Origin: Bacteroidales bacterium
GTDB lineage: Bacteria > Bacteroidota > Bacteroidia > Bacteroidales > P3
DNA length: 32,021 bases
Reading direction: 5' to 3'
NCBI GenBank assembly: GCA_017542345.1
Contig: JAFXXI010000009.1
Span: 1-32,021 of the forward strand
Shown piece by piece: positions 717 through 32,021 of this stretch. Positions within the stretch are counted from its first letter, which is position 1. The number at the start of each line of letters is the position of its first letter. Made by a program: the position numbers and the translations under genes. The notes below the pieces were generated by a model. That model ran no database searches. It had not been told where the DNA came from and saw only the letters and a list, made by a program, of their open reading frames with translations.

Positions 717-772
717 ATCTATCAATGTTTTAGTTTATATTTCACCTTTTCCGGCCCTCGGGTCGGTATGTG

Positions 773-4673: not shown

Positions 4674-4699
4674 TGCTGCAGTCATTTTAGGGGTTGGTG

Positions 4700-4897
4700 T
4701 TATAGCCACAGGCCGCGCTCGTATTCGCCGCTTTCGTCGGTATACTCAGTCACCTCTTCGGAGGCGCGCAGTGTGCGGTTGTCGCTCTCGCCCTCGACGA
4801 GCACATAGTCCTTGTGCAACGCCACCGAGAGGGCAAAGCCCTCTTCGGCGCCGTATACAAAGACCTCTATGAACGGTTTTATATAGCTTCTTTTCAT
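4700..4897 (-). CDS. Small protein of 65 aa, function unknown
   Basis: Starts MKRSYIKPFIEVFVY and contains EEGFALSV, then an acidic tail (ESDNRTLRASEEVTEYTDES). Short ORFs opening with MKK/R-x-Y-x-x-P and carrying a hydrophobic strand are common next to secreted-protein genes in Bacteroidales; their role is not established. It has no signal peptide or membrane helix. It begins 9 bases after the stop of the giant T9SS-sorted gene and ends 26 bases before the lipoprotein start, so it fits as the middle gene of an operon. Strand, spacing and its location in an otherwise empty gap make it a likely real gene. Confidence 0.7.
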   Translation of the reverse strand: MKRSYIKPFIEVFVYGAEEGFALSVALHKDYVLVEGESDNRTLRASEEVTEYTDESGEYERGLWL

Positions 4898-4906
4898 TGG
4901 CTTACA

Positions 4907-7900
4907 CTATTTTTTAATCAACTTCTGTATGGTAACCCCGTCGGCAGCATGTACGCGGAGGTAGTAGATACCGGTGGAGTAATGCTTGATATCAATGGTG
5001 ATTTCGTCGTTGCCGTAGGTGTCGTAGTCGGCCAGGCGACGACCGTCGTTGTCGTAGAGTTCCACATGCTTCATGCTTTCGGCCTCGACGGTGACGCGAG
5101 CGGTGGTCGGGTTAGGATAGACCAACACATGGCTCTTGGTCACCTGCGGGATGCTGACGTTGGCGTAGAAGGTGAGGGTGAGGGTGATGATACTGTCGCA
5201 GCCGTACTCGGTGGCGAGGGTGTCGCTCAACACGAGCGTGGCGAAGCCGTAGTTCTCGACCGTGGATTGCAGGAGGGCGGTCTCGGCAGCGGTCAGGGTG
5301 AAGCCGTAGCCGCTGTAGGCCTCGCCCACCAGGGCGCTGTCGGCATACTGCTCGTGCGACGAGAAGTGAGCGGCGAAGTGGATGGTCATCATGCTGTCAA
5401 CCATCTCGACGGTGTCGATGACACGGTAGCTCATGGTTTCGCCGTCGGCATAGTAGTTGCCGTTCCACTCAACGCTGTCGCAGCCATAGACGGTCATGCT
5501 GTCGCGCAGCGGTATCAGGTCGGGCGTGCCGAAGATAGGATAGCCGCCGTTGGTGCTCTCGAGGTCGCTGCGCCAGGTGTGGTAGTCGCCGCCAGCGGCG
5601 TTCTGCTCACGCACCCAGGCGTTGAGGACGCGGGTGAGGTTGTTGCGGCCGTGGACGCTCTGGGCCAAGGTGACGCCGTTGCCGGCACCCTCGAAGGTCG
5701 AGATGTTGTCCACATAGCTGCCGTTGATGCTGCTGCCCACAGACTGCTTGGCGGCACCCTGCTCGTAGTAGTTGCCGTCGGCGTTACTGTGGTTCAGCGA
5801 GGAGGCTACACCGCTACCACCGGCATTGTTGATGTCGCCGTAGAAGTAGTTGTTCTCTATCTCGCTGTTCTTGGCATAGCCAGCGATACCACCCACGCGG
5901 GTACCTTCGCTGTTCTCCAGGCGCACAAAGTTGTTGGCCACCACCGAGGGGCTGGCGCTCTTGCTCTTGCGGAAGAGGCCGCCCTTGCTGCCAGCGGTAC
6001 CGTCGAGGTAACCGGCCACACCGCCTATGTAGAGGCCGTTCATGCGGTTATCGTTATAGCCATAGCTGTTGGTGACGGTCGTCGAGACGCCGTAGCCCAC
6101 CATACCGCCGCTGTAGACGGCATCGCCGATGAACTTGGCCTTGACGCTCACGTTGGTCACAACGTCGTGCGTGGACTTACCAATCATACCGCCACTCGTG
6201 TAGTTGGTAGCGAGGATGGTGGTGGCGCTGCTCAGCTCGGCGGAGTCGGCGACAACGACGTTATCGAGTTGGGCATCCTTCGAGCAAGCCGCCACGGTAC
6301 CGACATACTGTGAGCCGCGGATGAGGGCAGACTCAAGCTTGATGCCGCAGATGCGAGCCGTGTCGATGTTGCCGAAGAAGCCGGTGTAGTTCATATTCGG
6401 CTCGTTGACGATGATGTTCTTGATGACGACCTGCTCGTCGCGGAGGCGTACCGTATCGGTGGCGTTGCTGCCCACGCCGAGGAACCATCCGCGGAAGGGC
6501 TGGTGGTTGGTACCCACCGGGGTCCACAGGTAGTTCTTCATGTCGTAGCCGCCGCTCTTCTGGTGCAGGAACACCTTGTTGAAGTAGAACTGGCGGGCCT
6601 GTGCGCCATTGAGACCGTTGACCACGCTGATAAACCAGGCAAGACCGTTCTCGTCATAGATATGCACGTCGCCGTGCAGGGTGGTGACATAACTGTTGCC
6701 GTTGTTGCCAGCGTAGTAGTAGTTGTCGTCATACGCTGCGTGAGCCGTGGCGACGCTGTTGACATGCTCAGACCAGTACTCGTCGGGGCCATAGTAGGCA
6801 GTGACGGTGGCGTCGTGGGCAGGCACGGTGTAGAGGGCCAACGGACGGTAGTACGGGTCGAAGTCCCACATGATAAACTTGTTCGTGCTGCCGCGCGGCT
6901 CGGTGTAGAGGTAGATGGTGTCGCCCGGGCAGAAGTTCAGGTCTGCAAGTTCGTGGCTCTCGCTCTCACCGACGTACTGGTAGACGTAGTCGTTGTCGGC
7001 ACCCGCCACGGTGGCGCTGATGGTACCGTTGCTGCGGTCAACCCATACACGCGGGGTAATCTGCACGCCCGAGAAGTTGCGGCTGGCGATGGCAAGCACG
7101 CTGCGCGCGGTGTCGGTCCAGCCGGAGCCAACGGTATCACTCATCCACGGCGAACTGTTGTCGCGGTGGCTCGCCGTGTCGGCGGCTGCCGTAGCCTTGG
7201 GCCAGTAGGTCGCGGGATTGGCGGCCTCATGGTCCATCAGTATGCGCAGGTCGATGTTCTTGTAGAGGGCGCACTCGCCGGTGGCGTCGGTAACGCTTAC
7301 CAGCAGGTGGTTCCAGACGCTGGAAGTGGCGGTGGTGATGGCCTCGTTGGGCAGCAGCAGGGTGTCGGCTATCGAGGCCGCATACTTGGCGTAGCGGTCG
7401 TCGCCGGTGACAGCGGTGCCGTTCTCGCCACCCGCCAGGTCATACTGCACCTGTGCGTTGCTGTAGGGGGTCGTCGTGGTCTGGATCGTGGTGCTCTTGC
7501 CGAGGTCGGTCCAGGTGTAGGTGTAGGGCATCATACCGCCCTGCACACGGTAGATAATACTGTCGCCGCCGGTGGGGCACACGTTGTTCTTTACGCCGAA
7601 GTGGAGCACGTCGCCCGAGGCCAGCGTGAGGGTGTTGTCGCGCTCGTACAGCGGTCCGATATACATGTCGGAGGCCAGCTGGTGACGGAAGGTGGCGCAG
7701 CGGAAGAGGTAGGCGTTGATGAGGTTCACCGACGGGTTGTAGAAGATGCTGAAGTGGTCGTCGCTTACAAAGTTCTCGTTCTCTCTCACGGCGTTGGCAA
7801 GCACGGTGTTGTTACCGCCCACCACGGTGGCGAAGCGGATGGTGTCACGTTCGTGGATGCCGGGGAACCACTTGCGCACGCCAATCTTGGTCTCGTCGCC

Positions 7901-17476: not shown

Positions 17477-17494
17477 TTTTGTATTTTTTCGTCC

Positions 17495-17549
17495 GCTCCC
17501 CTCCGGTTCCCCTCCGGTCCCCCTCCGGTCCCCCTCCGCTCCCGCTCCT
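17495..17549 (-). repeat. 11-bp tandem array, unit CGGAGGGGGAC (minus strand), upstream of the giant gene promoter
   Basis: Read on the minus strand the copies are CGGAGGGGGAC twice, CGGAGGGGAAC and CGGAGGGGAGC, preceded by a degenerate copy (AGGAGCGGGAG). It ends 19 bases upstream of the ATTG -33 box. Unit length and the CGGAG core match the array at 871-914, although the other six bases differ. Confidence 0.85.
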
Positions 17550-17567
17550 ATCAAAAGGCATGGAAAT

Positions 17568-17611
17568 GGGGAGGGGGTCCCCGGGGTGTCCCTAGGGGGT
17601 CCCTAGGGGTT
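17568..17611. repeat. Second 11-bp array, built on 8-bp palindromes
   Basis: Four 11-mers on the plus strand: GGGGAGGGGGT, CCCCGGGGTGT, CCCTAGGGGGT, CCCTAGGGGTT. The last three each begin with a perfect 8-bp palindrome (CCCCGGGG or CCCTAGGG) followed by a 3-base spacer. The array starts 5 bases after the stop of the upstream giant gene and is 18 bases from the neighbouring CGGAG array. It could form hairpins at that gene's 3' end, but no U-tract follows, so it is not called a terminator. Confidence 0.75.
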
Positions 17612-17616
17612 ATTGT

Positions 17617-20600
17617 TTAGGGTGTAGGTCGAGTCGCCACGGCAGGTAGTGAGGGTTGGTGATAAGAGCTGAGAGCCACGGCCTTAACGTACTCGCCGGC
17701 GCCGAGCGTAGGCTTGTGGGCCGAGTCGTACAGGGTGCCGTTGGTGGGCAGACCGTTGGAGTAGGTGAACTGGGCGTTCTCGTCGTTGGAGATGAGGTAG
17801 TAGATGATGGCGTCGGGCATCACCGTGGAAAGAGTCACCTCGTGGGTGTTGTTGTCAATGCTAATGCCCGGGGTAGTAGCCACATAGTCGTTCTTGACGG
17901 CGATGGCCTTAACGGTGCCACCGGCGGGCGTGCTGAAGGGAGTGGTGTAGCGCGTGCTGGAGGTGGTGGGAGTGGTGCCGTCGGTGGTGTAGTAGACGGC
18001 GGTGCCGGGCGTGGCGCAGTAGATGTCGGTGGTGCCGTCGGAGGCGATGGTGATGGCGGGCTGGGCGCAGACAAACTGGCGCTCGTAGCCCACCTGCACA
18101 TCGGTGCTGCCGTTGAGGATGGCCGCGTTGCCGGCACCGTAGACGGAGCCGTCGATGACGGTGGCGTCGCCGAAGATACCGATAGTGGTGTTGCCGGTGA
18201 CGACAGCCGTCCGGCCATAGCCGCCGCCGAAAATCGAGCCACGCACCTCGGTGGTGTCGTGGTTGCTCGTGGCGAAGGTGGTGTCGGGACCGCTGATATT
18301 AGTGATACGCGAGCTGTAGACCATGACGGTGGGGTTGCCCTCGACGGGAGCCGCCTGGCCGCCACCGTAGATGTTCTGGTCTATGATGGCGATGTTGCGA
18401 CGGTGGGCGTCGGGCACGATGAAGGCATCGGCCACGGGGCCATGGTCGAGGTCGATCTTGCGGTCGAGGCCGCCGAAGTTGACCACGGGGTTGGCCTTCA
18501 TGTAGCCGGTGAGGGTGTCGCCGTGGGTGGCGATGCCGTCAACGAGGTTGGTGCCGTTGCCGACGCTGCCGCCGTAGACGTTCTGCAGGCCGAAGGTCTT
18601 GCCGTTGGCGCAGGAGTCGTTGATGACGTTGACCAGCGGCGAGGCCAGGGTCGGATCGTTGGGCGTGTAGATGGCCATATTGCTGCCGCCGTAGATGTTG
18701 CCGAGCATCAGACCGTCGGAGCAGTCGTAGTCGGGATCGAGGTCGACGTTGATGGTGATCTGGCCCGTGATGTTACCGTTGACATCGGAACCGCCGAAGA
18801 GGTTGCCGATGTGGCCGCCGGTGACGTTGACAGTGACGTTGCCATAGATGTTGGCGGGACGTGCCGTGGTGCCCAGCGAGCCGCCGAAGACGTTGTCGAA
18901 GGAGCCGCCGGTGATGTTGAGGATGACGTCGCCCGTGAGGTCGGCGTTGCGCGAGCCGCCGTAGAAGTTACCCATGTGGGTACTGCAGCCCACGGTGACG
19001 ACACCGCCGCCGCCTTCAGCTTCGTTACCGCCGCTATAGGTGTTGGCCACCATCATCGGGCAGGAGCTGTTCTCCATCTCGAGGCGGGTGTCGTTGACGA
19101 AGCCCTTGGTGTTGGAACCGCCGAAGACGTCGTTGATGAGACCGCCCTGGATTTCGGTCCAGGCCACGCCTGCGACATCGGCGCCCGGGTTGCCGGCACC
19201 GGAACCGTTACCGCCGCCGAAGACCTCGTAGATGCGTCCGCCTTCGATGATGATGTGGTTGTTGACGGTGCTCGCCGCGTTGCCGCCGCCGTAGATGTAC
19301 TTGATGCTGTTCTCGTCGCAGTAGTGGACGTAGACGAGGGTGGTGCCGTTGGCAGCCACGGGGCTGTGGGCGGCACGGTTGCCGCCACCGTAGACGGCCT
19401 GCAAAGCAAAGGCGTTGTCGTCGGTGGAGAGCGTCAGCACGTCGTCGCTCGTCAGCTCGCTGGCGTCGCCGTCGAGGGCGGCCCAGTCGCCGCTGGCGGG
19501 GCAGGCGTTGGCGCCGGTATGCGCGGTCTTGTAGATGTGTACGTTGGTGTTGCCGAAGACGGTGCCGTCCATGTTGTTGGCGCCGTAGACTTCGCCGTCG
19601 ATGGTGGCCGAGCCGATGGCCAGGCTGGCATCGTCGGGATCGGCACCAGGCAGGCCTATGTTGACCGTGGTGTTGCCGGAGGATGCGTTGCGCTCGTCGC
19701 CCACCGAGGCCATCTGGGCGCCGCCGTAGACGGAGCCGTGGATAGTGCCGCCGGTGATGTCGACACGGGCGTCGCCGTAGGTGCGACCGGCCATGGTGAG
19801 AGGTGTCGTCGAGAGGCTGCGCGTGGTGGAGTCGTGGACGGCGGCGGAGTTGTTCTCGGTCTCGTCGTCAGAGCCGTACCCCGCGCCGTAGATGTCGCCG
19901 GAGTAGATCTTGGCGAGGTTGGCGTGGGGGGCGCCAGAGAAGCCGAAGGTGCCGCCGCTGATGTTGACACGCGAGTTGCCAATCACGGCGCCCTGCTCGG
20001 CACCGCCGAAGACGTTGCCCAGGACGGTGGCCGTGCCGCTGATGTTGACAACGGATTGGCGCGAGCGGGCCATGGAGACCCAGTGGGGTGCCGTCGGGTC
20101 GACGTCGCCCTGGCTGGCGCCGAAGACATTGCCGGTGCAGGTGTGGGTGAGGGTATCCTTGTCGGCGTTGTAGATGGTCCACACGCTGGGGTTGATATCG
20201 GGGTCGACGGTGTACTCATAGGCGAGGCCTATGGTGCCGCCGCTGATGTCGACCGTGGAGGTACCTGTCTGTGCCACGAAGGGATGGCCTGCCGCCTCGG
20301 TCCAGTAGCCCACGCCGGCCATCTCGCCGCCGCCGAAGACGGAGCCGCGGATGACGGGGCTGCCCGAGACGGTGACAACGGCGTTGGCCACGCGGCCTGC
20401 CACGATGTCCTCGTAATATTCAATGTCGCCCTTGCCGGAGCCCATGATGTCGCCCACCGACCAGTCGCACTGGAGGAGCTTCTCGGGATTGTTGATACCG
20501 ATCTGGCCGCCGCTGACGGTGACAGTGGCGAGGCCGTGGTTGATGGAGTCGTAGAGGTCGGAGGTGACGTAGGCGCTGTAGTCGGCATCGATGTCGACAC

Positions 20601-23600
20601 CCGTGAGGGCCAAGCTGCCACCGCCGAAGATGGAGCCGATGAGGTAGCCGTCGGTCATGGTGACGGAGGTATTGCCACCCACGCGGCCGGCATGCTGGTT
20701 GATGCGGAACTCGTCGGCGGTGAGGGGGTCGCTGTCGTGGTCGATGACGGCGCCGCTGCCACGACCGCCGCCGAAGACGTTGCCGGCGAGGGCATCAAAG
20801 TTCACGGTGGCGTCGCCGATGGTGCCGCCGGAGATGGTGACGTCGGTATTCTCGAGGACGTGGCCGTCCTGGCCGCCGCCGTAGACGTCGCCCTTCACCT
20901 GGCCGCCGCTGATGTCGACATCGGTGACGCGGACGTCGCAGAAGTCTTTGAACTCATCGTCGCCACGGCCCTTGCCGGCGCCGTAGAGCGAGCCGTCGAC
21001 GGTGCCGTTGGTGACTTCGACCTTGGCGGTGCCGGTGGCATTGTTGCCGTCGGTGCCAAGGAGGGCGAGGGCACCGCCGCCGAAGACATCGCCCTCGACG
21101 TGGACATCGGCGCCGTTGAGCAGCACATTGGTGTTGCCGTGGACGTGGCCAGCGGTGCGGGAGAGGGAGTCGACGATGGCGATGGTCTTGTAGATGTTGT
21201 CGCCGTCGGCTTCGATACCCGTACGGATGGTTTCAAGCGTGGTGTTCTTGTCGCAGACAATGTCGCCATTGGCTTTGAGGTAGTTGCCGCTGGCGTCGCG
21301 GAGGAAGGCCTCATAGGTGTCCTCGCCGCTGCCGCCGCCATAGACATCGCCGCTCACTTCGCCGCTGGTGAGGGTGACGTAGGTGGAGTTGTTGACATGG
21401 CCGTTGAGACCGCCGCCGTAGACGTCGCCGTCGATGCGGTTGGAGGCCGAAGCGGCAGAGGCGTAATTGATATTCACCACGGTGTTGGCGACCCAGGTGT
21501 GCTGGGTGTAGTCGTTGCCGTGGAGATGGCCCTTGCCGGCGCGGCCACGGCCAGCGCCGAAGACAGAGCCGTAGACATGGCCGCCATAGACATCAATCCA
21601 GGCGCGGCCGGTCTGGGCGGTGGTGCCGAGGGACACAGGAGTGTCGCTGTAGCCGATGGTGCCAAGCTCGCCCACGCTGCCCAGCGAGGAGCCGCCGAAG
21701 ACGTGGCCATAGACGTTGCCGCCATTGAGAATCACATGGGTGGACTGTTTCACCCAACCAGCGGTGGTGCTGGTGGTGTAGTTCTCCATGTTTAGGTCGA
21801 CGCCGCGGCCGCCGCCGTAGACGTGGCCGACGTAGTCGTTGATCCATTCATATTCGCCTGAGTGGCGTATGCGGCCGATGTCGCCCTTGTTGACGATGAC
21901 GAGTGTGGAGTCGAGGACGTGGCCGTTCTCGCCGCTGCCGAAGACGGCGCCACGCACGTCGGGCGAGGCGCTGGTGTCGGCCTTGCCGATGGTGACATGG
22001 GCGACGTTGACGTAGGCTGTGCTCGCATAGTCGCTGCCCGCCATACCGCGGCCGGAGCCGAAGACACGTCCGTTGTTGCGGCCGGCGGTGCCGAGGCGGC
22101 CGCCGCGGATGTCGACGGTGGCTGTGCCGCCGCTGACGTAGGTGATGTCGCCGCCCGCATTGTCGTATCTGCCCACCGTGGCCACCGAGCCGCCGCCGTA
22201 GACGTTGTGGTAGACGAGGCCGCCGGTGATGAGCACGTTGCTGTTGCCGTAGACACGGCCTGCCGTTCTGCTGAGGTGTACGGTGCCGCCCTGGACATAG
22301 TGGTCTACACCGCGGCCGCCGCCGTAGACGTTGCCGAGGAAGACGGCGATACCGCCCACGATGCGGCCGTTACGGTCGGTGAGAGTGTCTTGATGACGGA
22401 TGCCGGGGTAGAAGTTGACGCCGTAGATATTGGTGTCGACCGTGGCGGGACGTGCGGTGGAGGGGAAGTTGATGGTGTCATAGGAGCCGTAGTCGTTGGC
22501 AGTCTTGCCACCCACGACGCCGCCGCTGACCTTGACGAAGGTGTTGTGGAGCACATGGCCGTTCATGCCGCCGCCGAAGACCGAGCCGCGCACGTCGGCA
22601 AACTGGGTGGGCTGGCTGATGCTGGCGCCGTCGGTGATGTGGACAAAGGTGCTGTCCACATAGGCCAGGTGGGTGGCGTCGGAGGTGGAGGATGCCGCTA
22701 TACCGCGGCCGCCGCCGTAGACGCCGCCTTCGTTCTCGCCGGTGATACCAATGCGGCCGCCGTCGACAACCACCTTGGTCGCGCCGGTGCCGGCGTGGAT
22801 GTCGGTGGGATCGGTGTAGAAGCCGTTGCCGTAGACATAAGTACCCACGGAGGCGATGGAGCCGCCGCCAAACACGTTGTGGAGGATGCGGGCATTGCCG
22901 GTGACGTAGACGTCGGTGTTGCCGTAGACGCGGCCCGCCGAGGCGCTATAGATGTGGGTGCTGCTGTTCTCGGGGTTGCCGGGGGTGTGGTCGATACCAC
23001 GGCCGCCACCGTAGACGTTGCCGCGGAAGACGCGGTTGCCGGTGCCGTAGACACCCACGTTGAGTTCGTCGTTGGTGCTGTTGGTGTCGTTAATCCAGAT
23101 GGTGGAGCGCGGGGTGCGCTCGGAGTTGAAGGGGGTGTCGAGAATGGGCAGGAAGAAGCCGTTGTGGTGCAGGCGGAAGCCGCCGATCTTGCCGCCGCTG
23201 ACGACGACGCGGGTGTCGCCCTTGACGTGGCCATTCTCGCCGCCGCCGAAGACGGAGCCCATGATGTCGGCCGTGTCGCTGACGGTGACAAAGGTGTTGT
23301 TGGCGAAGGCCAGCTCGGAGTACATGCGGTGGTCGGCGCTGCCGGAGTTGTCATAGTTCATACCGCGGCCGGAGCCGTAGACCATGCCTTCGTTCTCACC
23401 GATGCAGCTGAAGTTCTTGGCTATGGTGTCGGAGGCGCTGACTGCTGTGTCGCTGCCGAGGAGGGCCTTGTATTCAGCGTTGGTGAGGACGGCCGTCTCG
23501 GTGTTGTTGAGCAGGTAGTTGCCACGGGCGTCGTAGAGCAGGTCGCGCCACTTGGGACCTATATGGCCACCTTTGACGGTGACGATGGTGCGGCCGGTGT

Positions 23601-26600
23601 TGGGCGCGAAGGTGTGCTCAACGCCGCCGAAGAGGGCGTCATTGTCGGTGCGCGTGAAGTTGCCCACCGAGGCGTAGGAGCCGCCACCATAGACGGCGTG
23701 GTAGACGTGGGCCGAGTCGCTGACGGTGACGTTGGTGTTGCCGTAGACACGACCGGCGGTGAGGCTGAGGTGCGAACCGTAGTGGTCGGTGCCGCGGCCG
23801 GAGCCGTAGACGTTGCCGGTGTAGACATGGCTGATGTCGACGCCCTCGGCGCTCTCGGGGTCGTACTTGCGCACGTTGAGCGGTATGCGTACACCTATGG
23901 TGCCGCCGCTGATGGCCACCTTGGTGCTGTCGAAGACGTGGCCGTTCTCGCCGCCGCCGAAGACGGAGCCGCGCACCTTGGCGGTGCCGGAGACCTCGAT
24001 GTTGGTGGTGTTGACGTAGGCGAAGCGCGAGTAGTTGGTGCCGCCGGCGTTGGTGCCGGCCTTGCCAAGGCTGCCGCCGAAGATGTTGCCGGGGCTGTTG
24101 ATGTCGGTGACGGTGATGTTGTCGGGACCCACGGTGCCGCCACTGACGACGATGTGGGTGTTGCCGCGGGTGGCCACCGAGGTGGTGACAGAGTCGTTGG
24201 CGTCGCGGGTGAACTGGCCTGCCGTGGCCATCTCGCCGCCGCCATAGATATTGCCTTTGACCCAGGTGGTACCCTTAGCGCTTTGCGACATGGTTACCTT
24301 GGGGTTGGAGCGCACGAGGCCGGCCAGGAAGTCGGTCGAGTCGCCCTTGCCGCCGCCGTAGACGTTGGAATCGACGGTGCCGCAGAGGATGTTGACCAGC
24401 GGGCTGGCTTCGTAGTTGGTCACGGTGGTGTCGTCGGGGAGGTACTGGGTCAGGTTGGAACCGCCGTAGACGTTACGAACCTGCCAGAGGCATTCGTTGT
24501 AGGTGCTGTCGACGTCGACGGTGATGGTACCGGTGATGTTGCCGTTGATGTTGGAGCCACCATAGGCGCTGCCAATCTTGCCGCCGAGGATGACGAGGTG
24601 GGTATTGCCTTCGATGTCGGCCTTGACGGAGTCTAACTTGCCAGCGCTGGCGCCGGGGGCCGCGATGGCACCCTTGGAGCCGCCGTAGACCTCACCGAAC
24701 TCACCGCCCTTGATGATGAAGGTGACGTTGCCTGCGATGTCGGCCTGGTTGGAGCCGCCGTAGGCAGCCTTGAACTTCACGCCGCAGCCGAGGGTTGTCG
24801 AGAGCTCGACGGGGCCGAGGTCTGACACATTGGAGCCGCCGAAGAACTCGTCGCCCTCGATGGTGCTGCCGCAGGCGCCGTCGTTTTCAACGGAGATGCG
24901 GATGGTGTCGACCGCACCTTTGAAGTTGCTGCCGCCGAAGAGGGTGCCGATGGTGCCGCCGTGGATCTCGGTGATGGCAGCGCCATAGATGTTGGCCGGC
25001 ACGGAGCTGCCCACATAACGGTCGAAGGTGCCGTCGCCGCCGCCATAAACACTGCCGAAGCGGCCGCCATCGATGATGAGCTTGGTGTCGGCACCGATGC
25101 CGGGCTTGGCGCCCACATTGGCCGCAGCGCCGCCGCCATAGACCTCTCCGATGGTGTTGTCGCAGGTGTAGATATGCACCTGGGCATAGTGGCCGGAGTC
25201 TTTAGGCAGATAGTGGGAGTTGTAGCAGCCGCCGTAGAGTTTGCCGATGGCATACTTGGTGCCGGAGACTTCGTCTTCGGCGGTGTGGGCGGTCTTGTAG
25301 ACGTTGATATAGATGTTGCCGAGGGGTGAGCCGGCATACTGGTTGCCGCCGTAGACGGACCGCTTGGAGGCATCGAAAGAGACCTCGCCGCTGTAGGTGC
25401 CGTCGCCGTTGTCCTTGCCGATGTTGATGGTGGCATCGCCGCCCACGTTGGCACGACGGCCGCCGCCATAGGTGAAGGGCACGTTGCCGCCGAGGAGGTT
25501 GATGGTGGTGTTGCCGGCGACGTAGCCGGAAAGGGTGTCGTTGGTGAAGTCGCCATAATAACCTGCGTCATTATAATCAGCCTTCCAGCAGCCTTTACCG
25601 CCGCCATAGATGGCCGAGCGGACAAAACCGCCATAGATGTTGAGTTCAGTGTTGCCGAGCATCTGGCCGTTATCGGCGCCGCCGTAGATGGTGTTCTTGA
25701 GGCGGCCGCGGTAGAAGTTGGTCACGCTGTTGTGGCAGGTGGCGAGGGCTGAGTTGTCGATGCCTTCAGGACTCGGGATACCACGGCTGCCGCCGCCGAG
25801 ATAGCCACCGAAGGCGTTATTGGCATTTGCAGGGCCGCCGAGGGTGTCGCTGTCGAGGGGGAGACGGACGTTGATGTAGCAGTAGGAGGAGTCACCGGTC
25901 TGGCCTTTGAAGGGACCCACAGAGGCCATTGCGCCGCCAGCAAGTACGTTGCGATAGATACGGGCGCCAAGGACATCGATGGTGGTGTTGCGCGTGACGG
26001 AACCGGCCGACTGGCAGTAGCTGCCGTCGGGGAGGGTGTCCTCGCCACGGCCGGCGCCGTAGATGTTGCCTCGGTTGTACCAGTGGCCAATGTTGGAGTT
26101 GATAGTGCTGTTAACCAAGGGACGCACGCCTACCTGGCCGCGGTTGGTCTGCACATAGGTGTCGAAGCGGACGTGGCCGTTCTCGCCGCCACCGAACAGG
26201 GAGGCGGTGACATGCGGATAGAGGATGTGGTAGTCGCAGCTGCGCTGTGTGGAGTCGCCGATGACGACGAAGGTCTTGTTGACATAGGCCATATAGTAGT
26301 TGCGGTCGTAGTCGAAGCCCACCTTCTCAACGGAGGGGAAGACAATACCCTTGCCGGCGCCGTAGACGTGGCCATCGGGTATTATATACGTGCCGCTGTA
26401 GGCGGTGCCGTTGGTAAGGGTGTCGGGGCCTATGGTGCCGCCGAGGATGTTGACGTAGCAGTGGCCCGAGTTCTCGGCCAGGAGGCTGTCGGCCACCGAG
26501 ACATTGGCGCCTTCGCCGTAGCCCTTGTAGTTGCCCTTGCCCACAGAGGCGAGGTAGCCGCCGCCGTAGACATTCTTGGCCACGCGGCCGCCGAGGATGT

Positions 26601-29600
26601 TCACGTAGGTGTTGCCAAAGACCTTGCCGGCGATGATGTCGTAGACCTCGGCATCGTAGAGGGCGTCGGTGGAGGCATTCTTGAGTTTGTCGGTGTACTT
26701 GTCGACACCCTTGCCGCCGCCGAAGACAGAGCCAAGCACAAGACCGCGCTTGAGGGTGACGACGGCGGAGTCGTAGACGTGGCCGTTCTCACCAGAGCCG
26801 TAGACGGTGCCGATGATCTTGTCGGTGGACGAGGCCAGGTCGATGTTGACATGGGTGGCACGGGCAGTAGCCAGCTTACCCGTCACATAGCGGTCGCCCA
26901 CGGTACCGCGGGCCGAGCCGAAGATGTCGCCACCGGTGGTGTCGGAGCCAGAGATGAAACCGATAGTGCCGCCGGTGATGTTCACCACGGCGTCGCCGGA
27001 GTTACCATTATAGGTATATTCATAGGGCCAGCTGAGGTAGTATGAGGTGTTGGGGTCGGTGTGTTTGATGACACTGGCTATGGTGCCCACCGAGCCCAGC
27101 TCGCCGGCGCCATAGACGTTGTTGTTGACGGCGCCGCCCGAGATGTTGACCGTGATGTTGCCGCCGGTGAGACCAGCGTAGGTAGGTATACTGTCGCTCG
27201 TGGCGTCGTTGCCCACCTGGGCCTTCTCGGCAGCCGTCAGTTCGGGATGGCCCACGCCACCGCCATAGACGTTGCCGTGGCTGGTAGAGCCAGCGCTGTT
27301 GCGGCCGATAATGGCATTGGCAGAGATATTGATTTCAATATCCTCAGTCACGGTGCCCAATTCAGAGCCACCGTAGACATTGCCCTTGACCCAGGAGTTG
27401 CCACTGATGTTGACTGTAGTCGACTTGGCGGAACCCAGTCTGTACCAGTTGGGCATAACTAAATCGCCATCAAGCTTGGTGAGACGGCCCATAGAGCCAC
27501 CGAAGACATTGCCACCACGCGAGTGGGACAAACCATAGTCGGAGGCATCATCGTTGCCGATGGTGCCACCGGTGATGTTGACGGTGATATTGCCGCTGTC
27601 GGCATCGGAGGTCATCACACCGTAGCAAGCCTCTTCAGGGAAGCAGAGTTTGTAACCCACCGAGCCCAAACGGCCACCGCCGTAGACGGAGCCGAGAATG
27701 TTGCCTTGGGCAATATTGACGGTGATATTGCCGCCCACGTTGCCAGCGGTGAGGGCAATGCCATCAAAGCCACGGCCACCGCCAAAGACGTTGCCGTCGA
27801 CGTAGGAAGTGCCGGTGGTACCGATAGTGTTAGGCGTATTGATAGTGACCGTTACGTCGCCCAAGACGTGACCGTCCTCGCCGCCACCAAAGACGGAGCC
27901 GAAGATGCGGCCGCCGGTGACATTGACAATGACGCTCTCAACGTTGGTCATCTTATTAAAGAATAGACGCGGGTCGCCTTTGCCAGCACCGAAGAGGTAG
28001 CAGCTTACGGGACGAGCAAGGATGGAGTCGATGGTGCGCGGCACGCCGAGGGTACCACCGCTGAAGTTGACGGTGCAGCTGCCGAGGACGTCGGTCATCT
28101 CGTTGCCGCCATAGAGGTTGTTGAGAATATGTCCGCCGTCGACGTCGACGCGGGTGTTGCCGTTCACGCGGCCTGCCGAACGACGCCAGGTGGCAGGAGC
28201 CACATCGGTGCCGGGTTCAATGGCATAGTAGCCGGAGCCGCCGCCATAGACCGAGCCGTAGAAGCTGTGACCGTTGGAGGGGTTGCTGTTACCTCCACGC
28301 GCGCTCGTACCATTACCATAATTCCCATCAGTTCCAGCGTAAGCGTCATAGATTTCGAAGGGTGCACGGAAGGGCCAGTGGGAGACTTCGTGGAATTCGG
28401 CAGGGTCTTCTCCGTTCCACTGGGAGGAGGTATACTTGGGATCGAAGACATAGCTCGAACCATTCCAGTAGCATCCAACACCTATCTGGCAGTCACCAGT
28501 TATCCTGACGCGGGTATTGCGCAGCACCTGGCCATTCTCGCCGCCGCCGTATACCGTGGCGGTAACGAGGGCATTGCCGCCGATCTCGAGGTAGGTGCTG
28601 TCGACCACAGCAAGTTTGTTGGCATTGGGGTAGTGGATGGAGTCGACCTCGCCGCGGCTACCACAGAAGATGTAGCCATAGTCATCCTGGTCGGGGTTGG
28701 GTGGTGGCATGAGAGCTACCTCGGGGATACCCACCTGGCTGTTGCCCGAGACGGTGACTTTGGCAAGGCCAGTACCCGTTTGGCAGGTCTTGGGCTCGCC
28801 CGCAATATGCAGCGGACTCTCGCCGGCGCCATAAGTAGCCGTGAAGGTACCCACAGAGCCCAGCTCGCCGCCGCCGTAGATACTACGCTTCACGAGGCCG
28901 CCCTGCATGTCAACCCAGGTGTTTTTGGCCACGAGGCCAAATTCTTCGTGCGACTGGTCACCCTTACCTCCACCATAAACAGAGCCATTGACGGTGCCGT
29001 TCTCAATACGCACAGTGGTGCTGCCGTCAACTTTACCAAGTTCGCCACCACCAAGGACATTGCCTTTGACGAGGAACATCTTGCCGTTGGCCACATCGGG
29101 ATGCATGTGGACGTAGGGGTTGGCTATTACGAGGCCGTTGTTCACACTCGCCGTACTGCCCTTGCCGCCACCGTAGACGTTGCGGTTGACGTGGCCATTC
29201 AGAAGGTCGATGAGGGGGTAGGCATAGTCGGGATCGTAGTTGGGGTCGCTGGAATTGGCGGTGTCGGGGGTGTAGGCCGCGAGGTTGCCGCCGCCATAGA
29301 TGGCGTTGATGTCCAACGGGCAGTCAGCGCCGGTGGAATCAACAATGATGGTGATGCGGCCTTCGACGGTACCGTTGACATCGCAGCCGCCATAGACGGT
29401 ACCCACGGTGCCGCCACGGAGAATGATAGTAACGTTACCGCCGGTACCTTCAAGTTCGGGGTGAGCGGCCATGTGATCAACCATAGCCTGCGTGAATTTA
29501 CGGTCGTTCACGGGAAGGGCTTGGTCAGCCGTTATCTCTGCCGAGGTGGGGTATTTCTTAATACTGGCGGCAAAAGAGGGGTCACCCTTAGGGCCGCCGA

Positions 29601-32021
29601 AGATGGTGCCGAAGTGACCACCGGTGATAACAAGGGTTACGTTGCCGTAGGTAGTACCAAGGCGGCATCCACCATAAAGAGCATTGTATTCCAGACGGTT
29701 TGAGCAAGTGTACTCGTGGAGGAAGTCGCCCATAATATCCACTTCGTTACCGCCGCAGAAATGATTATACACCCTCAGCATACCTTCGTTACAGTCGGTC
29801 GACACACCGCTACCGTTGACGAAAGTGACACCACCGCTGACGGTACCGCGCTTGTTACAGTGTTCGTAGATGAAGCCACAGAGACCGCCCTTACCAATGA
29901 GGTAGACGCCGCCGACACCGACATTGGCGGGGATGAGGGCACCGTTGCCGCCGCCGAAGACCTCGTCGAAGCGGCCACCGTCGAAGACAACACTATCGCC
30001 CGTTACAGCCGCAGCGTTACCGCCACCATAGAGCGTACCGATGGTGTTTCCGCAGCCGTGAACGTAGACATGGGGTTTCTTGACATGGGGGCGGGCTTGC
30101 TCGTCGGTGAGACCCGTCACGTTTTTCCTATAAATTTCTGTCGGAGCATAATCGGCACGGTTGCCGCCGCCATAGAGGCTAGCGATGGCGTAAGTGGCGT
30201 CCTCGGTGGCGCCAACCTCATCGGAGGCCTCGCGATGGGTGCCGTACACATCTATAAAGACATCGTTCTGCGGGGTGCCGTTGAGGTTGTTGCAGCCATA
30301 GACAGAAGCGCTCCTCAACACGGCATGACCGTCGTAGACAGGGTCGCCGGCAACAATTTCCTCGAAGCCGATGTTGACCTGTATCTTACCATGGACAATG
30401 GCAGCAATGTCGCTGGTGGCACCGTTGAGTCCGTTCTTCTGTCCCAGACCACCGCCGAAGATATTGCCTGCGATAGTACCGCTGAGGATGTCGATGGTGG
30501 TGGTCTCGACAGTGTTCATGCCGTTACCATCAATATTAGTGGAGTTGGTGTTGACCTTGCCGAGAGCCGATCCGCCATAGAGGTCGCCATAGAGGGTGGG
30601 CGTGGCGGTACCGGCCTGGTTGCCGAAGGTCACATGTACATTGCCGTCCACCTCAGTAGTTTGGCCGAAGCCGCCGCCGAAGATACGGGCGTTGTGACCG
30701 ACACTGCCCACGGTGCCGCCCAGGAGGGTGACGGTAGAGTTACCGCCCACGGTGCCCGAAGTGTTACAACCACCATAGATACCGTCGGAGACCGTACCAT
30801 TGTTCATATCGATTGTGGTGCTGCCACTGATGCCGGCTTCATTGCCACCGCCATAGAGGTTGGCGACCACGCTGTTGAAGCGATCCAGCTTCACGATGGG
30901 GCTGCCGGTAACAGCAGCGGCGTAGCCACCGCCGAAGACGCTACCCGTGACCTTTGCCACATACTGCGTAGCGCGGTCTATGCCTGCGGGATATTCCACA
31001 CTGGCGAGGGAAGCCATGGTAGTGGCGTCATAGCCGATATTGACATGAGGATTGGCCGTGACGATTGCCGTCGCACCCTTGCCGCCGCCGTAGACGTTGC
31101 CACGGATACCAGCCGACTGTTTGATATGCATCACATTGATGGTGGGCGAAGCGGCAGAAGCGTTGGTGGGAGTATAGGGGGTCAAATTACCGCCGCCGTA
31201 GATGTTGTTGAGGTCGAGGCCGCAATCCGTGGTCTCATGGTCAAGCACATTGACGGTGATGTTACCAGTGATGTTACCGTTAATGTTCGAGCCACCAAAG
31301 GCATCGTTTTTAACAGTGCCACCGTAGAGGTTAAGGGTAACATTACCGGTGATGTTGGCGGGGGTGCCCACTACACCTTTCGAGCCACCATATACATTAT
31401 CCATTATACCACCCTTGACGTTGAGAATGACGTCGCCGGTGATGTTGGCCGCATTGGAGCCGCCATATACATTCTTAAATGTACCAGCACCGCATTCAAT
31501 GGTGGTGGTGACGTTGGTAGCAATATCTACCTGGTTCGAACCTCCGAAGAAGTCCTCGACCACCTCGGCGCAAGGGCTGTTGTTGTCGACGTTGACATTG
31601 ATGGGACCGCTGATGGTACCTTGCGTGTTACTACCGCTGACGAGGGTGCCGATGGTGCCGCCATGCAGGTCGAGGGTGATACCGCCGGCGCCGACATTGG
31701 CCGCCGTAATCTCACCGTTACCACCGCCGAAGAGATAGCTGAAACGGCCGCCCTGGATATCCACCTCCGTGCCGGTGACGGCAGCAGCGTCGCCGCCGCC
31801 GAAGACACGTCTGATGGTGTTGTCGCAGGTGTATACATTCACATAGGTCTTCTTGCCGGTGGCGCTGAAGTCGGCATTCTTACCGCCGCCGAAGACGTTG
31901 TCGATGGCGTATTCAGCGTCGTTCTCGGTGTATGAGGCTAATTGTTTGGCAGTTCTGGCCGTGCTGTAGATGTTCACCGTCACATCCTGCTGCGGCGAGC
32001 CGTTGGTGTTGTTGCAGCCGT
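17617..32021 (-). CDS. Giant Gly-rich rung-repeat protein, 5' end outside the window (more than 4,800 codons visible)
   Basis: The frame is open to the right edge. A GTG at 31983 is internal: the codons before it (GCNNTNGSPQQD) continue a repeat found again at 30305. By eye about 110 rungs of the form [VIL][FY]GG[GSC] are spread over the visible protein, alternating with short strands such as NVTLNLYGG. They form an eleven-rung cassette A (four copies) and a four-rung cassette B (about eleven copies). The last ~130 residues (17665-18065) look like two chitobiase C-terminal-type (CHB_HEX) beta-sandwiches (PGTAVYYTTDGTTPT; PDAIIYYLISNDENA). The protein then stops at PTP with no T9SS sorting domain, and none is found in any minus-strand frame downstream. 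Likely an extracellular beta-solenoid or filament; the signal peptide, if any, lies outside. Function unknown. Confidence 0.88.
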   Translation of the reverse strand, partial: GCNNTNGSPQQDVTVNIYSTARTAKQLASYTENDAEYAIDNVFGGGKNADFSATGKKTYVNVYTCDNTIRRVFGGGDAAAVTGTEVDIQGGRFSYLFGGGNGEITAANVGAGGITLDLHGGTIGTLVSGSNTQGTISGPINVNVDNNSPCAEVVEDFFGGSNQVDIATNVTTTIECGAGTFKNVYGGSNAANITGDVILNVKGGIMDNVYGGSKGVVGTPANITGNVTLNLYGGTVKNDAFGGSNINGNITGNITVNVLDHETTDCGLDLNNIYGGGNLTPYTPTNASAASPTINVMHIKQSAGIRGNVYGGGKGATAIVTANPHVNIGYDATTMASLASVEYPAGIDRATQYVAKVTGSVFGGGYAAAVTGSPIVKLDRFNSVVANLYGGGNEAGISGSTTIDMNNGTVSDGIYGGCNTSGTVGGNSTVTLLGGTVGSVGHNARIFGGGFGQTTEVDGNVHVTFGNQAGTATPTLYGDLYGGSALGKVNTNSTNIDGNGMNTVETTTIDILSGTIAGNIFGGGLGQKNGLNGATSDIAAIVHGKIQVNIGFEEIVAGDPVYDGHAVLRSASVYGCNNLNGTPQNDVFIDVYGTHREASDEVGATEDATYAIASLYGGGNRADYAPTEIYRKNVTGLTDEQARPHVKKPHVYVHGCGNTIGTLYGGGNAAAVTGDSVVFDGGRFDEVFGGGNGALIPANVGVGGVYLIGKGGLCGFIYEHCNKRGTVSGGVTFVNGSGVSTDCNEGMLRVYNHFCGGNEVDIMGDFLHEYTCSNRLEYNALYGGCRLGTTYGNVTLVITGGHFGTIFGGPKGDPSFAASIKKYPTSAEITADQALPVNDRKFTQAMVDHMAAHPELEGTGGNVTIILRGGTVGTVYGGCDVNGTVEGRITIIVDSTGADCPLDINAIYGGGNLAAYTPDTANSSDPNYDPDYAYPLIDLLNGHVNRNVYGGGKGSTASVNNGLVIANPYVHMHPDVANGKMFLVKGNVLGGGELGKVDGSTTVRIENGTVNGSVYGGGKGDQSHEEFGLVAKNTWVDMQGGLVKRSIYGGGELGSVGTFTATYGAGESPLHIAGEPKTCQTGTGLAKVTVSGNSQVGIPEVALMPPPNPDQDDYGYIFCGSRGEVDSIHYPNANKLAVVDSTYLEIGGNALVTATVYGGGENGQVLRNTRVRITGDCQIGVGCYWNGSSYVFDPKYTSSQWNGEDPAEFHEVSHWPFRAPFEIYDAYAGTDGNYGNGTSARGGNSNPSNGHSFYGSVYGGGSGYYAIEPGTDVAPATWRRSAGRVNGNTRVDVDGGHILNNLYGGNEMTDVLGSCTVNFSGGTLGVPRTIDSILARPVSCYLFGAGKGDPRLFFNKMTNVESVIVNVTGGRIFGSVFGGGEDGHVLGDVTVTINTPNTIGTTGTSYVDGNVFGGGRGFDGIALTAGNVGGNITVNIAQGNILGSVYGGGRLGSVGYKLCFPEEACYGVMTSDADSGNITVNITGGTIGNDDASDYGLSHSRGGNVFGGSMGRLTKLDGDLVMPNWYRLGSAKSTTVNISGNSWVKGNVYGGSELGTVTEDIEINISANAIIGRNSAGSTSHGNVYGGGVGHPELTAAEKAQVGNDATSDSIPTYAGLTGGNITVNISGGAVNNNVYGAGELGSVGTIASVIKHTDPNTSYYLSWPYEYTYNGNSGDAVVNITGGTIGFISGSDTTGGDIFGSARGTVGDRYVTGKLATARATHVNIDLASSTDKIIGTVYGSGENGHVYDSAVVTLKRGLVLGSVFGGGKGVDKYTDKLKNASTDALYDAEVYDIIAGKVFGNTYVNILGGRVAKNVYGGGYLASVGKGNYKGYGEGANVSVADSLLAENSGHCYVNILGGTIGPDTLTNGTAYSGTYIIPDGHVYGAGKGIVFPSVEKVGFDYDRNYYMAYVNKTFVVIGDSTQRSCDYHILYPHVTASLFGGGENGHVRFDTYVQTNRGQVGVRPLVNSTINSNIGHWYNRGNIYGAGRGEDTLPDGSYCQSAGSVTRNTTIDVLGARIYRNVLAGGAMASVGPFKGQTGDSSYCYINVRLPLDSDTLGGPANANNAFGGYLGGGSRGIPSPEGIDNSALATCHNSVTNFYRGRLKNTIYGGADNGQMLGNTELNIYGGFVRSAIYGGGKGCWKADYNDAGYYGDFTNDTLSGYVAGNTTINLLGGNVPFTYGGGRRANVGGDATINIGKDNGDGTYSGEVSFDASKRSVYGGNQYAGSPLGNIYINVYKTAHTAEDEVSGTKYAIGKLYGGCYNSHYLPKDSGHYAQVHIYTCDNTIGEVYGGGAAANVGAKPGIGADTKLIIDGGRFGSVYGGGDGTFDRYVGSSVPANIYGAAITEIHGGTIGTLFGGSNFKGAVDTIRISVENDGACGSTIEGDEFFGGSNVSDLGPVELSTTLGCGVKFKAAYGGSNQADIAGNVTFIIKGGEFGEVYGGSKGAIAAPGASAGKLDSVKADIEGNTHLVILGGKIGSAYGGSNINGNITGTITVDVDSTYNECLWQVRNVYGGSNLTQYLPDDTTVTNYEASPLVNILCGTVDSNVYGGGKGDSTDFLAGLVRSNPKVTMSQSAKGTTWVKGNIYGGGEMATAGQFTRDANDSVTTSVATRGNTHIVVSGGTVGPDNITVTDINSPGNIFGGSLGKAGTNAGGTNYSRFAYVNTTNIEVSGTAKVRGSVFGGGENGHVFDSTKVAISGGTIGVRIPLNVRKYDPESAEGVDISHVYTGNVYGSGRGTDHYGSHLSLTAGRVYGNTNVTVSDSAHVYHAVYGGGSYASVGNFTRTDNDALFGGVEHTFAPNTGRTIVTVKGGHIGPKWRDLLYDARGNYLLNNTETAVLTNAEYKALLGSDTAVSASDTIAKNFSCIGENEGMVYGSGRGMNYDNSGSADHRMYSELAFANNTFVTVSDTADIMGSVFGGGENGHVKGDTRVVVSGGKIGGFRLHHNGFFLPILDTPFNSERTPRSTIWINDTNSTNDELNVGVYGTGNRVFRGNVYGGGRGIDHTPGNPENSSTHIYSASAGRVYGNTDVYVTGNARILHNVFGGGSIASVGTYVYGNGFYTDPTDIHAGTGATKVVVDGGRIGITGENEGGVYGGGRGIAASSTSDATHLAYVDSTFVHITDGASISQPTQFADVRGSVFGGGMNGHVLHNTFVKVSGGVVGGKTANDYGSYDTINFPSTARPATVDTNIYGVNFYPGIRHQDTLTDRNGRIVGGIAVFLGNVYGGGRGVDHYVQGGTVHLSRTAGRVYGNSNVLITGGLVYHNVYGGGSVATVGRYDNAGGDITYVSGGTATVDIRGGRLGTAGRNNGRVFGSGRGMAGSDYASTAYVNVAHVTIGKADTSASPDVRGAVFGSGENGHVLDSTLVIVNKGDIGRIRHSGEYEWINDYVGHVYGGGRGVDLNMENYTTSTTAGWVKQSTHVILNGGNVYGHVFGGSSLGSVGELGTIGYSDTPVSLGTTAQTGRAWIDVYGGHVYGSVFGAGRGRAGKGHLHGNDYTQHTWVANTVVNINYASAASASNRIDGDVYGGGLNGHVNNSTYVTLTSGEVSGDVYGGGSGEDTYEAFLRDASGNYLKANGDIVCDKNTTLETIRTGIEADGDNIYKTIAIVDSLSRTAGHVHGNTNVLLNGADVHVEGDVFGGGALALLGTDGNNATGTAKVEVTNGTVDGSLYGAGKGRGDDEFKDFCDVRVTDVDISGGQVKGDVYGGGQDGHVLENTDVTISGGTIGDATVNFDALAGNVFGGGRGSGAVIDHDSDPLTADEFRINQHAGRVGGNTSVTMTDGYLIGSIFGGGSLALTGVDIDADYSAYVTSDLYDSINHGLATVTVSGGQIGINNPEKLLQCDWSVGDIMGSGKGDIEYYEDIVAGRVANAVVTVSGSPVIRGSVFGGGEMAGVGYWTEAAGHPFVAQTGTSTVDISGGTIGLAYEYTVDPDINPSVWTIYNADKDTLTHTCTGNVFGASQGDVDPTAPHWVSMARSRQSVVNISGTATVLGNVFGGAEQGAVIGNSRVNISGGTFGFSGAPHANLAKIYSGDIYGAGYGSDDETENNSAAVHDSTTRSLSTTPLTMAGRTYGDARVDITGGTIHGSVYGGAQMASVGDERNASSGNTTVNIGLPGADPDDASLAIGSATIDGEVYGANNMDGTVFGNTNVHIYKTAHTGANACPASGDWAALDGDASELTSDDVLTLSTDDNAFALQAVYGGGNRAAHSPVAANGTTLVYVHYCDENSIKYIYGGGNAASTVNNHIIIEGGRIYEVFGGGNGSGAGNPGADVAGVAWTEIQGGLINDVFGGSNTKGFVNDTRLEMENSSCPMMVANTYSGGNEAEGGGGVVTVGCSTHMGNFYGGSRNADLTGDVILNITGGSFDNVFGGSLGTTARPANIYGNVTVNVTGGHIGNLFGGSDVNGNITGQITINVDLDPDYDCSDGLMLGNIYGGSNMAIYTPNDPTLASPLVNVINDSCANGKTFGLQNVYGGSVGNGTNLVDGIATHGDTLTGYMKANPVVNFGGLDRKIDLDHGPVADAFIVPDAHRRNIAIIDQNIYGGGQAAPVEGNPTVMVYSSRITNISGPDTTFATSNHDTTEVRGSIFGGGYGRTAVVTGNTTIGIFGDATVIDGSVYGAGNAAILNGSTDVQVGYERQFVCAQPAITIASDGTTDIYCATPGTAVYYTTDGTTPTTSSTRYTTPFSTPAGGTVKAIAVKNDYVATTPGISIDNNTHEVTLSTVMPDAIIYYLISNDENAQFTYSNGLPTNGTLYDSAHKPTLGAGEYVKAVALSSYHQPSLPAVATRPTP
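18550..19592 (-). repeat. Cassette A, copy 4
   Basis: Eleven rungs: GANNMDG, GGNRAA, GGNAAST, GGNGSG, GGSNTKG, SGGNEAE, GGSRNAD, GGSLGTT, GGSDVNGNITG, GGSNMAIYTP, GGSVGNG. Cysteines at the four homologous places (HYCDEN, SSCPMM, VGCSTH, YDCSDG). Confidence 0.8.
19693..23975 (-). repeat. Cassette B array 2 (about six to seven four-rung cassettes)
   Basis: The regular array. NGHV/DGHV rungs fall near 23975, 23265, 22585, 21955, 21425 and 20890, and each is followed in order by a GRGxD rung, a GSxASV rung and a GRGM-like rung. Spacing shrinks from about 700 to about 530 bases toward the 3' side. A last, less complete set ends in GYGSD and AQMASV. Confidence 0.8.
24335..25356 (-). repeat. Cassette A, copy 3
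   Basis: Eleven rungs in the cassette order: GGNQYAG, GGCYNSH, GGAAANV, GGDGTF, GGSNFKG, FFGGSNVSD, GGSNQAD, GGSKGAI, GGSNINGNITG, GGSNLTQYLP, GGGKGDST. Cysteines in YTCDNTI, GACGSTI, LGCGVKF and NECLWQ. Confidence 0.8.
25435..28560 (-). repeat. Cassette B array 1 (about five four-rung cassettes)
   Basis: A cassette of four rungs recurs in order: (1) GGGENGHV, (2) GGGRGxD, (3) GGxxASV, (4) GxGKG or similar. Starts of cassettes, marked by the NGHV/NGQ rung, lie near 28555, 27900, 26812, 26210 and 25690. One set (ELGTV / GVGHP / ELGSV / ARGTV) between 27380 and 26880 is a weaker match. Confidence 0.7.
29150..30305 (-). repeat. Cassette A, copy 2
   Basis: The same eleven-rung order: GCNNLNG, GGNRAD, GGNAAAV, GGNGALI, HCNKRG, CGGNEVD, GGCRLGT, GGPKGDP, GGCDVNG, GGGNLAAYTP, GGGKGSTA. 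Cysteines at the four homologous sites (HGCGNTI, TDCNEG, YTCSNR, ADCPLD). An insertion of about 45 residues (ITADQALPVNDRK and after) separates the GGPKGDP and GGCDVNG rungs. It is the most divergent copy. Confidence 0.75.
31060..32021 (-). repeat. Cassette A, copy 1 (cut by the window edge)
   Basis: Order of rungs N to C: GCNNTNG, GGKNADF, GGDAAAV, GGNGEI, GSNTQG, FFGGSNQVD, YGGSNAAN, YGGSKG, FGGSNINGNITG, YGGGNLTPYTP, YGGGKGATA. Four cysteines occur in YTCDNTI, SPCAEV, IECGAGT and TDCGLDL. Confidence 0.8.

Follow-up and report, generated by a model that had tools for sequence, protein, structure and literature searches.

The window analysed here, the first 32,021 of the 101,980 bases of contig JAFXXI010000009.1 from an incomplete (69.67% complete) metagenome-assembled genome (MAG) of a Bacteroidales bacterium, contains most of a gene for a giant protein, P0007, in which short glycine-rich coils of four types follow one another in a repeating cycle. 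The types are designated K (GKG/GRG), N (ENGHV), D (GRGxD) and S (SxASVG), and their order is K-N-D-S. The gene is a stop-free open frame on the minus strand, of which positions 17617..32021 encode the C-terminal 4800 of 6272 residues (this part is referred to as P0001), with the start at contig position 36435, beyond the window. The initial annotation had placed the repeats in one giant protein, as is indeed the case, although that protein continues beyond the window.

Cutting by eye at the YGGG-like head of each coil yielded 58 coils of 26 to 104 residues, 27 of them in array 1 (P0007 residues 2461-3694; 25354..29055, minus strand) and 31 in array 2 (residues 4064-5616; 19588..24246, minus strand), both arrays being defined by this cut, by labelling with hidden Markov models (HMMs) and by label-free similarity. 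One cassette from array 2 serves as an example on the same strand, with by-eye limits: a K coil (residues 4573-4619; 22579..22719), an N coil (4620-4703; 22327..22578), a D coil (4704-4745; 22201..22326) and an S coil (4746-4791; 22063..22200). Two arrays had been recognised originally, with limits of 25435-28560 and 19693-23975 that are now superseded. The count of about eleven cassettes, each of around 175-240 residues, is replaced by 13 full K-to-S cassettes and six further coils (14.5 equivalents), the full cassettes spanning 153-234 residues on the by-eye coil limits.

The order of types is genuine. HMMs built from array 1 alone gave all 31 coils of array 2 the same label as the by-eye classification, and 29 of the 30 steps between them followed the cycle, against a maximum of 20 among 20000 shuffles. 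Models built from array 2 reproduced 23 of the 27 labels in array 1, where 22 of 26 steps follow the cycle (shuffle maximum 17), while leave-one-out labelling agreed with the by-eye types for 55 of 58 coils. Array 1 opens with two coils that were called S and K by eye but are labelled N and D by the HMMs; this version is the more regular, and the HMMs applied to relatives were trained with the two coils relabelled accordingly. A self-comparison of the arrays using no labels likewise revealed a preferred order, with coil similarity peaking at lags of 4, 8 and 12 (z = 10.8, 7.5 and 5.2), each value being reached in none of 2000 shuffles. The sequence of motifs first proposed, NGHV to GRGxD to SxASV to GRG/GKG, is thus upheld, but the order is nearly rather than wholly strict, as array 2 skips half a cassette once (S-K, then S-K again). 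Within the array DNA, similarity is 80-85% for the best copies of 40 bases and 60-84% for longer families, and a DNA repeat comparison found no near-identical repeats; the arrays are therefore neither recently expanded nor a simple assembly artefact.

Loop placement and head charge

Compact coils, of 24-26 residues, combine by eye a YGGG-like head with a T-x-V-x-I-like strand. Loop lengths were surveyed in P0007 and related open reading frames (ORFs), duplicates included, over 557 coils of type K, 718 of type N, 694 of type D and 719 of type S; the strand could be located in 546, 687, 641 and 641 of these, respectively. The stretch from head to strand comprises at least 15 residues in 494/546 K, 588/641 D and 597/641 S coils, but in only 34/687 N coils. 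Conversely, the distance between the strand and the following head reaches this length in 618/687 N and 565/641 S coils, compared with 150/546 K and 88/641 D coils. Hence long loops alternate between two sites along the K-N-D-S cycle.

The fifth residue of the head also varies with type, being basic in 304 of 401 K coils, acidic in 443 of 562 N coils and basic in 283 of 510 D coils, with a mixture in S coils (163 acidic and 100 basic of 571). The original suggestion of a solenoid with four chemically different faces or turns per cycle therefore stands as regards four differing turns, since both loop placement and head charge are type-specific; the solenoid fold and the patterned filament surface are so far inferred from the repeat pattern. 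Among 1578 pairs of in-order neighbouring heads, 537 carry opposite and 99 like charges, which raised the candidate of a ladder of salt bridges. Charge covariation within type pairs favours such a ladder for N-D, opposes it for K-N and D-S and is mixed for S-K, where like charges fall below the shuffled level and opposite charges do so too. These tests are inconsistent, and because the HMMs take the head into account, a coil's assigned type is itself not independent of its head charge; the ladder was dropped.

Relatives and history of the cassettes

At a threshold of 1e-10, matches to the cassette profile occurred in 11 of 61 genomes, the window's own included; all belong to its genus (11 of 37 genomes), with none of the 24 genomes from other genera matching. 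Among 393 genomes drawn from the order, four were matched, and of the three besides the source genome only G151 has a K-N-D-S run. No relative was found in the viral contigs, plasmids and phages searched; PADLOC gave no match and PHROGs a single one, at E = 0.31.

Ten same-genus loci were fetched, nine of which give an ORF in which four or more coils could be classified; together these have 267 of 297 steps in order, and each of the nine proteins has more ordered steps than any of 2000 shuffles. In the tenth, L098, the ORF is of the companion type described below. A scan of named genome contigs, from which 70 loci representing the best 80 of 98 matches were kept, gave 71 ORFs from 69 of these loci, with 1974 of 2325 steps in K-N-D-S order. 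The two sets overlap, in that some contigs are shared, and some named loci overlap or come from the same genome. The titles of the 70 loci name a ruminant gut site in 20 cases and carry RUG or RUI names, which we take to denote rumen collections, in 35; the remaining 15 are uninformative, and none indicates another host. A recount with slightly different limits gave 1966 ordered steps of 2320, leaving 354 out of order. Many of the latter look like missed coils, because 219 of the 354 gaps contain an unclassified coil head, whereas 40 K-S steps without one look like true half-cassette skips.

Comparison with the ortholog L090 shows that the cassettes are old and position-specific. Of the 12 cassettes compared, numbers 0-4 are 73-80% identical to the cassette at the same position in L090 but 34-46% identical to the best other cassette of P0007 itself, and the corresponding values for cassette 11 are 66% and 37%; for cassettes 5-10 no such advantage is seen. 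The ratio of nonsynonymous to synonymous substitution rates (dN/dS) against L090 is 0.19-0.29 over four stretches covering residues 750-3694 (0.29 for array 1), 0.40 over residues 3695-4063, 0.95 over array 2 (windows 0.8-1.4) and 0.42-0.47 beyond it. Positive selection in array 2 was not accepted as the explanation, given that synonymous differences there are near saturation: codons for the same amino acid differ at a frequency of 0.29, with 0.33 expected at random, which is unlike most other stretches.

Array 2 instead looks to contain a block of cassettes exchanged between lineages with the cycle kept in phase. For windows whose first residue lies between 4101 and 5001, identity to the three closest orthologs, L060-L062, is 29-49%, while neighbouring parts mostly have 65-85%. 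The best match to the windows at 4101-4701 is L019 (52-58%), which is in general more distant; for those at 4801-4901 it is L034, and at 5001 it is L077, with 37% identity only. Residues 2040-2460 (window positions of about 29056-30318) are a possible second exchanged block, with synonymous differences from L090 of 0.50 compared to 0.54 at random, near saturation, although identity to L061 remains approximately 75% there.

Gene architecture, neighbours and export

The full P0007 product has a computed mass of approximately 636 kDa and isoelectric point of 4.8. It begins with a signal peptide, as judged by eye, after which glycine-rich coils follow directly and make up most of the protein. Arrays 1 and 2 are flanked by a second repeat unit, block A, which comprises about a dozen coils and was absent from the initial annotation. 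A profile built from four copies, one of them partial, matches P0007 five times at near full length: at residues 146-497, 1472-1826, 2046-2460, 3695-4063 and 5617-6022. Four of these matches fall on the minus strand of the window, at 30958..32021 (residues 1472-1826; 511.7 bits, aligned), 29056..30300 (2046-2460; 543.3 bits), 24247..25353 (3695-4063, between the arrays; 545.6 bits) and 18370..19587 (5617-6022, after array 2; 528.1 bits), the last three being included in the profile. In a sample of 395 genomes from the phylum, this profile matched only that of the window itself.

Near the C terminus lies a CHB_HEX_C_1/Fn3_assoc domain (17881..18051, minus strand; Pfam, E = 9.3e-13). A frameshift was suspected at this end of the gene and dismissed, as the ortholog L090 has the same kind of ending. 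Antisense to P0007, on the plus strand, are open frames at 17656-21795 (1379 aa) and 21862-24636 (924 aa), probably a by-product of the glycine-rich, G+C-rich codons of P0007. G-rich near-repeats of the type ggggaccggagg occur at 17480-17616, in the gap that separates P0007 from the downstream gene P0002.

P0002 (4907..17407, minus strand) encodes up to 4166 aa, although the ATG at 17356 is the likelier start; it has a signal peptide by eye, diverged coils in its N-terminal half and, at 4910..5122 on the same strand, a type A sorting tail of the type IX secretion system (T9SS; Pfam PF18962, NCBIfam TIGR04183). Upstream of P0007 and outside the window is P0003 (1410 aa), with a signal peptide by eye, Fn3_assoc and CHB_HEX_C_1 domains and coils at its end. 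Further members of the surroundings are P0004 (2870 aa; L003:9215-17827, contig 41214-49826), a large exported protein of the same cluster, also upstream and outside the window, with fn3 and choice-of-anchor J domains and a type B T9SS tail (Pfam CHU_C above the cut-off, TIGR04131 below it), and P0005 (770 aa; 2397-4709, minus strand), with only a weak, below-cut-off match to NigD1/NigD2 lipoproteins. Beside the cluster are presumably ordinary genes, recA-like at 3-725 (minus) and aminotransferase-like at 1121-2323 (plus) as judged by eye from motifs.

The occurrence of P0002 is associated with that of the cassettes. Across 37 genomes of the genus, P0002 homologs are found in 10 of the 11 with cassette matches and in 6 of the 26 others (Fisher's exact test, P = 2e-4); if G007, whose match sits inside a companion ORF, is counted as cassette-less, the former becomes 9 of 10 (P = 7e-4). 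Homologs of P0002 and P0007 are close together on one contig in G009, G012, G015, G016, G022, G023, G025 and G029, and are direct neighbours in L103, L104 and, in divergent orientation, L105. Some ORFs join P0003-like and P0007-like parts (e.g. L038 and L041), and others (L045, L055, L066, L068 and L071) combine P0007-like sequence with stretches weakly similar to P0002 (24-28% identity, partly over its coils). The family takes the form of separate genes in one genus and of various fusions elsewhere (L032, L038 and L041 versus L045, L055 and L066), which suggests that fusion or fission at coil boundaries is easy. Apparent gene overlaps among the relatives' stop-to-stop frames were left unused, such frames not beginning at start codons.

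No type A tail (TIGR04183/PF18962) was detected in the C-terminal 4800 residues of P0007 or in any of the eight genus orthologs scanned, seven of which have CHB_HEX_C_1, nor was a type B tail (CHU_C/TIGR04131) found in P0001 at E values up to 1. More widely, 60 of 81 complete C termini of related ORFs were scanned, the 21 excluded being mostly upstream-partner ORFs together with the cassette-bearing L059 and L077. Type A tails were found in 17 of the 60 by NCBIfam and 11 by Pfam, with its stricter limit, and CHB_HEX_C_1 in 12; a stray NCBIfam match, NF042962 (DUF499_antiphage), appeared in three. In some ORFs, such as L045, cassettes and a T9SS tail occur within one polypeptide. Of 41 genomes of the genus, 39 encode the T9SS component SprA; that of the window is one of them and itself has 39 matches to T9SS tails.

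Interpretation and known families

The reading we prefer, at roughly even chances, is that P0007 is an exported beta-solenoid stalk with variable loops in a four-coil pattern, displayed at the surface with the partners P0003 and P0002. It would form an elongated parallel beta-helix on a gut Bacteroidales cell, each coil contributing one head-to-head segment, with the long loops of K and D coils separating head from strand, those of N coils following the strand, and S coils having both. From this regular stalk the variable loops would stand out in fixed order as binding or exposed sites, plausibly serving adhesion to fibre, other microbes or the host. P0007 would reach and stay at the surface together with upstream P0003 and downstream P0002, the three-gene set perhaps using the T9SS through its tailed member. 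The data establish the order and its conservation, the loop sites, the age and mosaic history of the cassettes and the linkage of the genes; the fold, the location at the surface, the route of export and any role in binding are inferred. A more elaborate version seems doubtful on present evidence, namely a heterotypic display rail combining fixed-order loops, in-phase exchange of blocks and tail-less export via the T9SS-tailed neighbour, with the parts fused in relatives. Several observations weigh against the stalk. The spacing of coil heads in block A is irregular, at 12 to 67 residues; the heads of adjacent coils do not covary in charge in a consistent way; P0007 has no known binding domain or partner; signal peptides were called by eye only; and the lack of a recognised T9SS tail leaves no account of how the protein would cross the outer membrane.

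The main rival, somewhat unlikely in our view, is that the order is a fossil of an old tandem duplication of four coils, with the types kept by descent and by recombination of like with like in what is simply a long stalk. Duplication of the unit would by itself yield such an order, the four types occur only in the cycle of the arrays, and half-cassette skips are tolerated, as the 40 K-S steps with no unclassified head in the gap attest. Recombination between like units alone could maintain both the order and the in-phase exchange. Against this, loop placement is still type-specific over hundreds of coils although cassettes within P0007 are down to 34-46% identity, the K-N-D-S order holds in 71 related ORFs, and dN/dS is 0.29 over array 1. 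That P0007 is not an adhesin but a scaffold carrying or docking other proteins, for instance enzymes acting on plant fibre, would fit the companion genes, the fused relatives and the T9SS in the genome, yet Pfam and NCBIfam found no docking or enzyme domain in the stretches scanned, and we consider this improbable. Retention in the periplasm, to which the missing tail in P0007 and all eight scanned orthologs might point, is harder still to credit when a tail is found on 17 of the 60 C termini scanned in related ORFs, in cases such as L045 on the same polypeptide as the cassettes. An assembly artefact, with repeats collapsed or expanded, might be suspected for a repetitive gene in an incomplete MAG; this is extremely improbable given the divergence of the array DNA, a frame open over 6272 codons and collinear orthologs in other assemblies.

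Solenoid repeats are usually regarded as near-uniform. Here a higher-order unit of four coils has had its order kept, despite deep divergence, across a large set of giant proteins. Were the loops binding sites, P0007 would represent a naturally patterned scaffold whose modules can be exchanged, and it would be a candidate means of attachment or surface variation in uncultured rumen bacteria. A tail-less giant encoded beside the T9SS-tailed P0002 also raises a testable question of export.

In agreement with the initial annotation, which knew no named family with this pattern, the repeat matched none in the libraries searched (Pfam, NCBIfam and PDB sequences). Pfam found only CHB_HEX_C_1 and Fn3_assoc in P0001 and NCBIfam nothing at E values up to 1, leaving the coils unmatched. 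Searches with 55 two-cassette stretches gave single-member matches only, at E = 0.055 or worse, and two PDB sequence searches gave nine and three matches, with best E values of 0.1 and 0.082, which we attribute to chance. No description of the repeat was found in the titles and opening abstract lines listed by literature searches, which cannot prove that none exists.

SprB is a very large protein, and P0007 resembles it as another very large repetitive protein of Bacteroidota with a T9SS. According to two reports, SprB of Flavobacterium johnsoniae is a gliding adhesin anchored through SprF (PMC12635249, PMC9143113). P0007 differs from this type B cargo in that neither a type A nor a type B tail was found in it and in having a repeat that matches no catalogued family. 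The likeness to type A cargo (Por_Secre_tail) lies in the tails of the neighbour P0002 and of 17 of the 60 related C termini, while P0007 has no such tail and ends with CHB_HEX_C_1. Pmp proteins, filamentous haemagglutinin and autotransporter passengers are beta-helix surface proteins that, like P0007, have short glycine-rich coils in long tandem arrays, but P0001 does not match the Pfam and NCBIfam repeat models of these families, and to our knowledge they have no four-type higher-order cycle. With RTX proteins, whose hallmark is tandem nine-residue GGxGxDxUx repeats, P0007 shares the motif GGxGxD, present seven times and mostly in D-type heads, but no two of these motifs lie 9 or 18 residues apart, and the array coils have lengths of 26 to 104 residues. 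P0007 is akin in kind to giant repetitive surface proteins while departing from each named family in the defining feature tested, and its repeat is, relative to the libraries searched, apparently an undescribed family.

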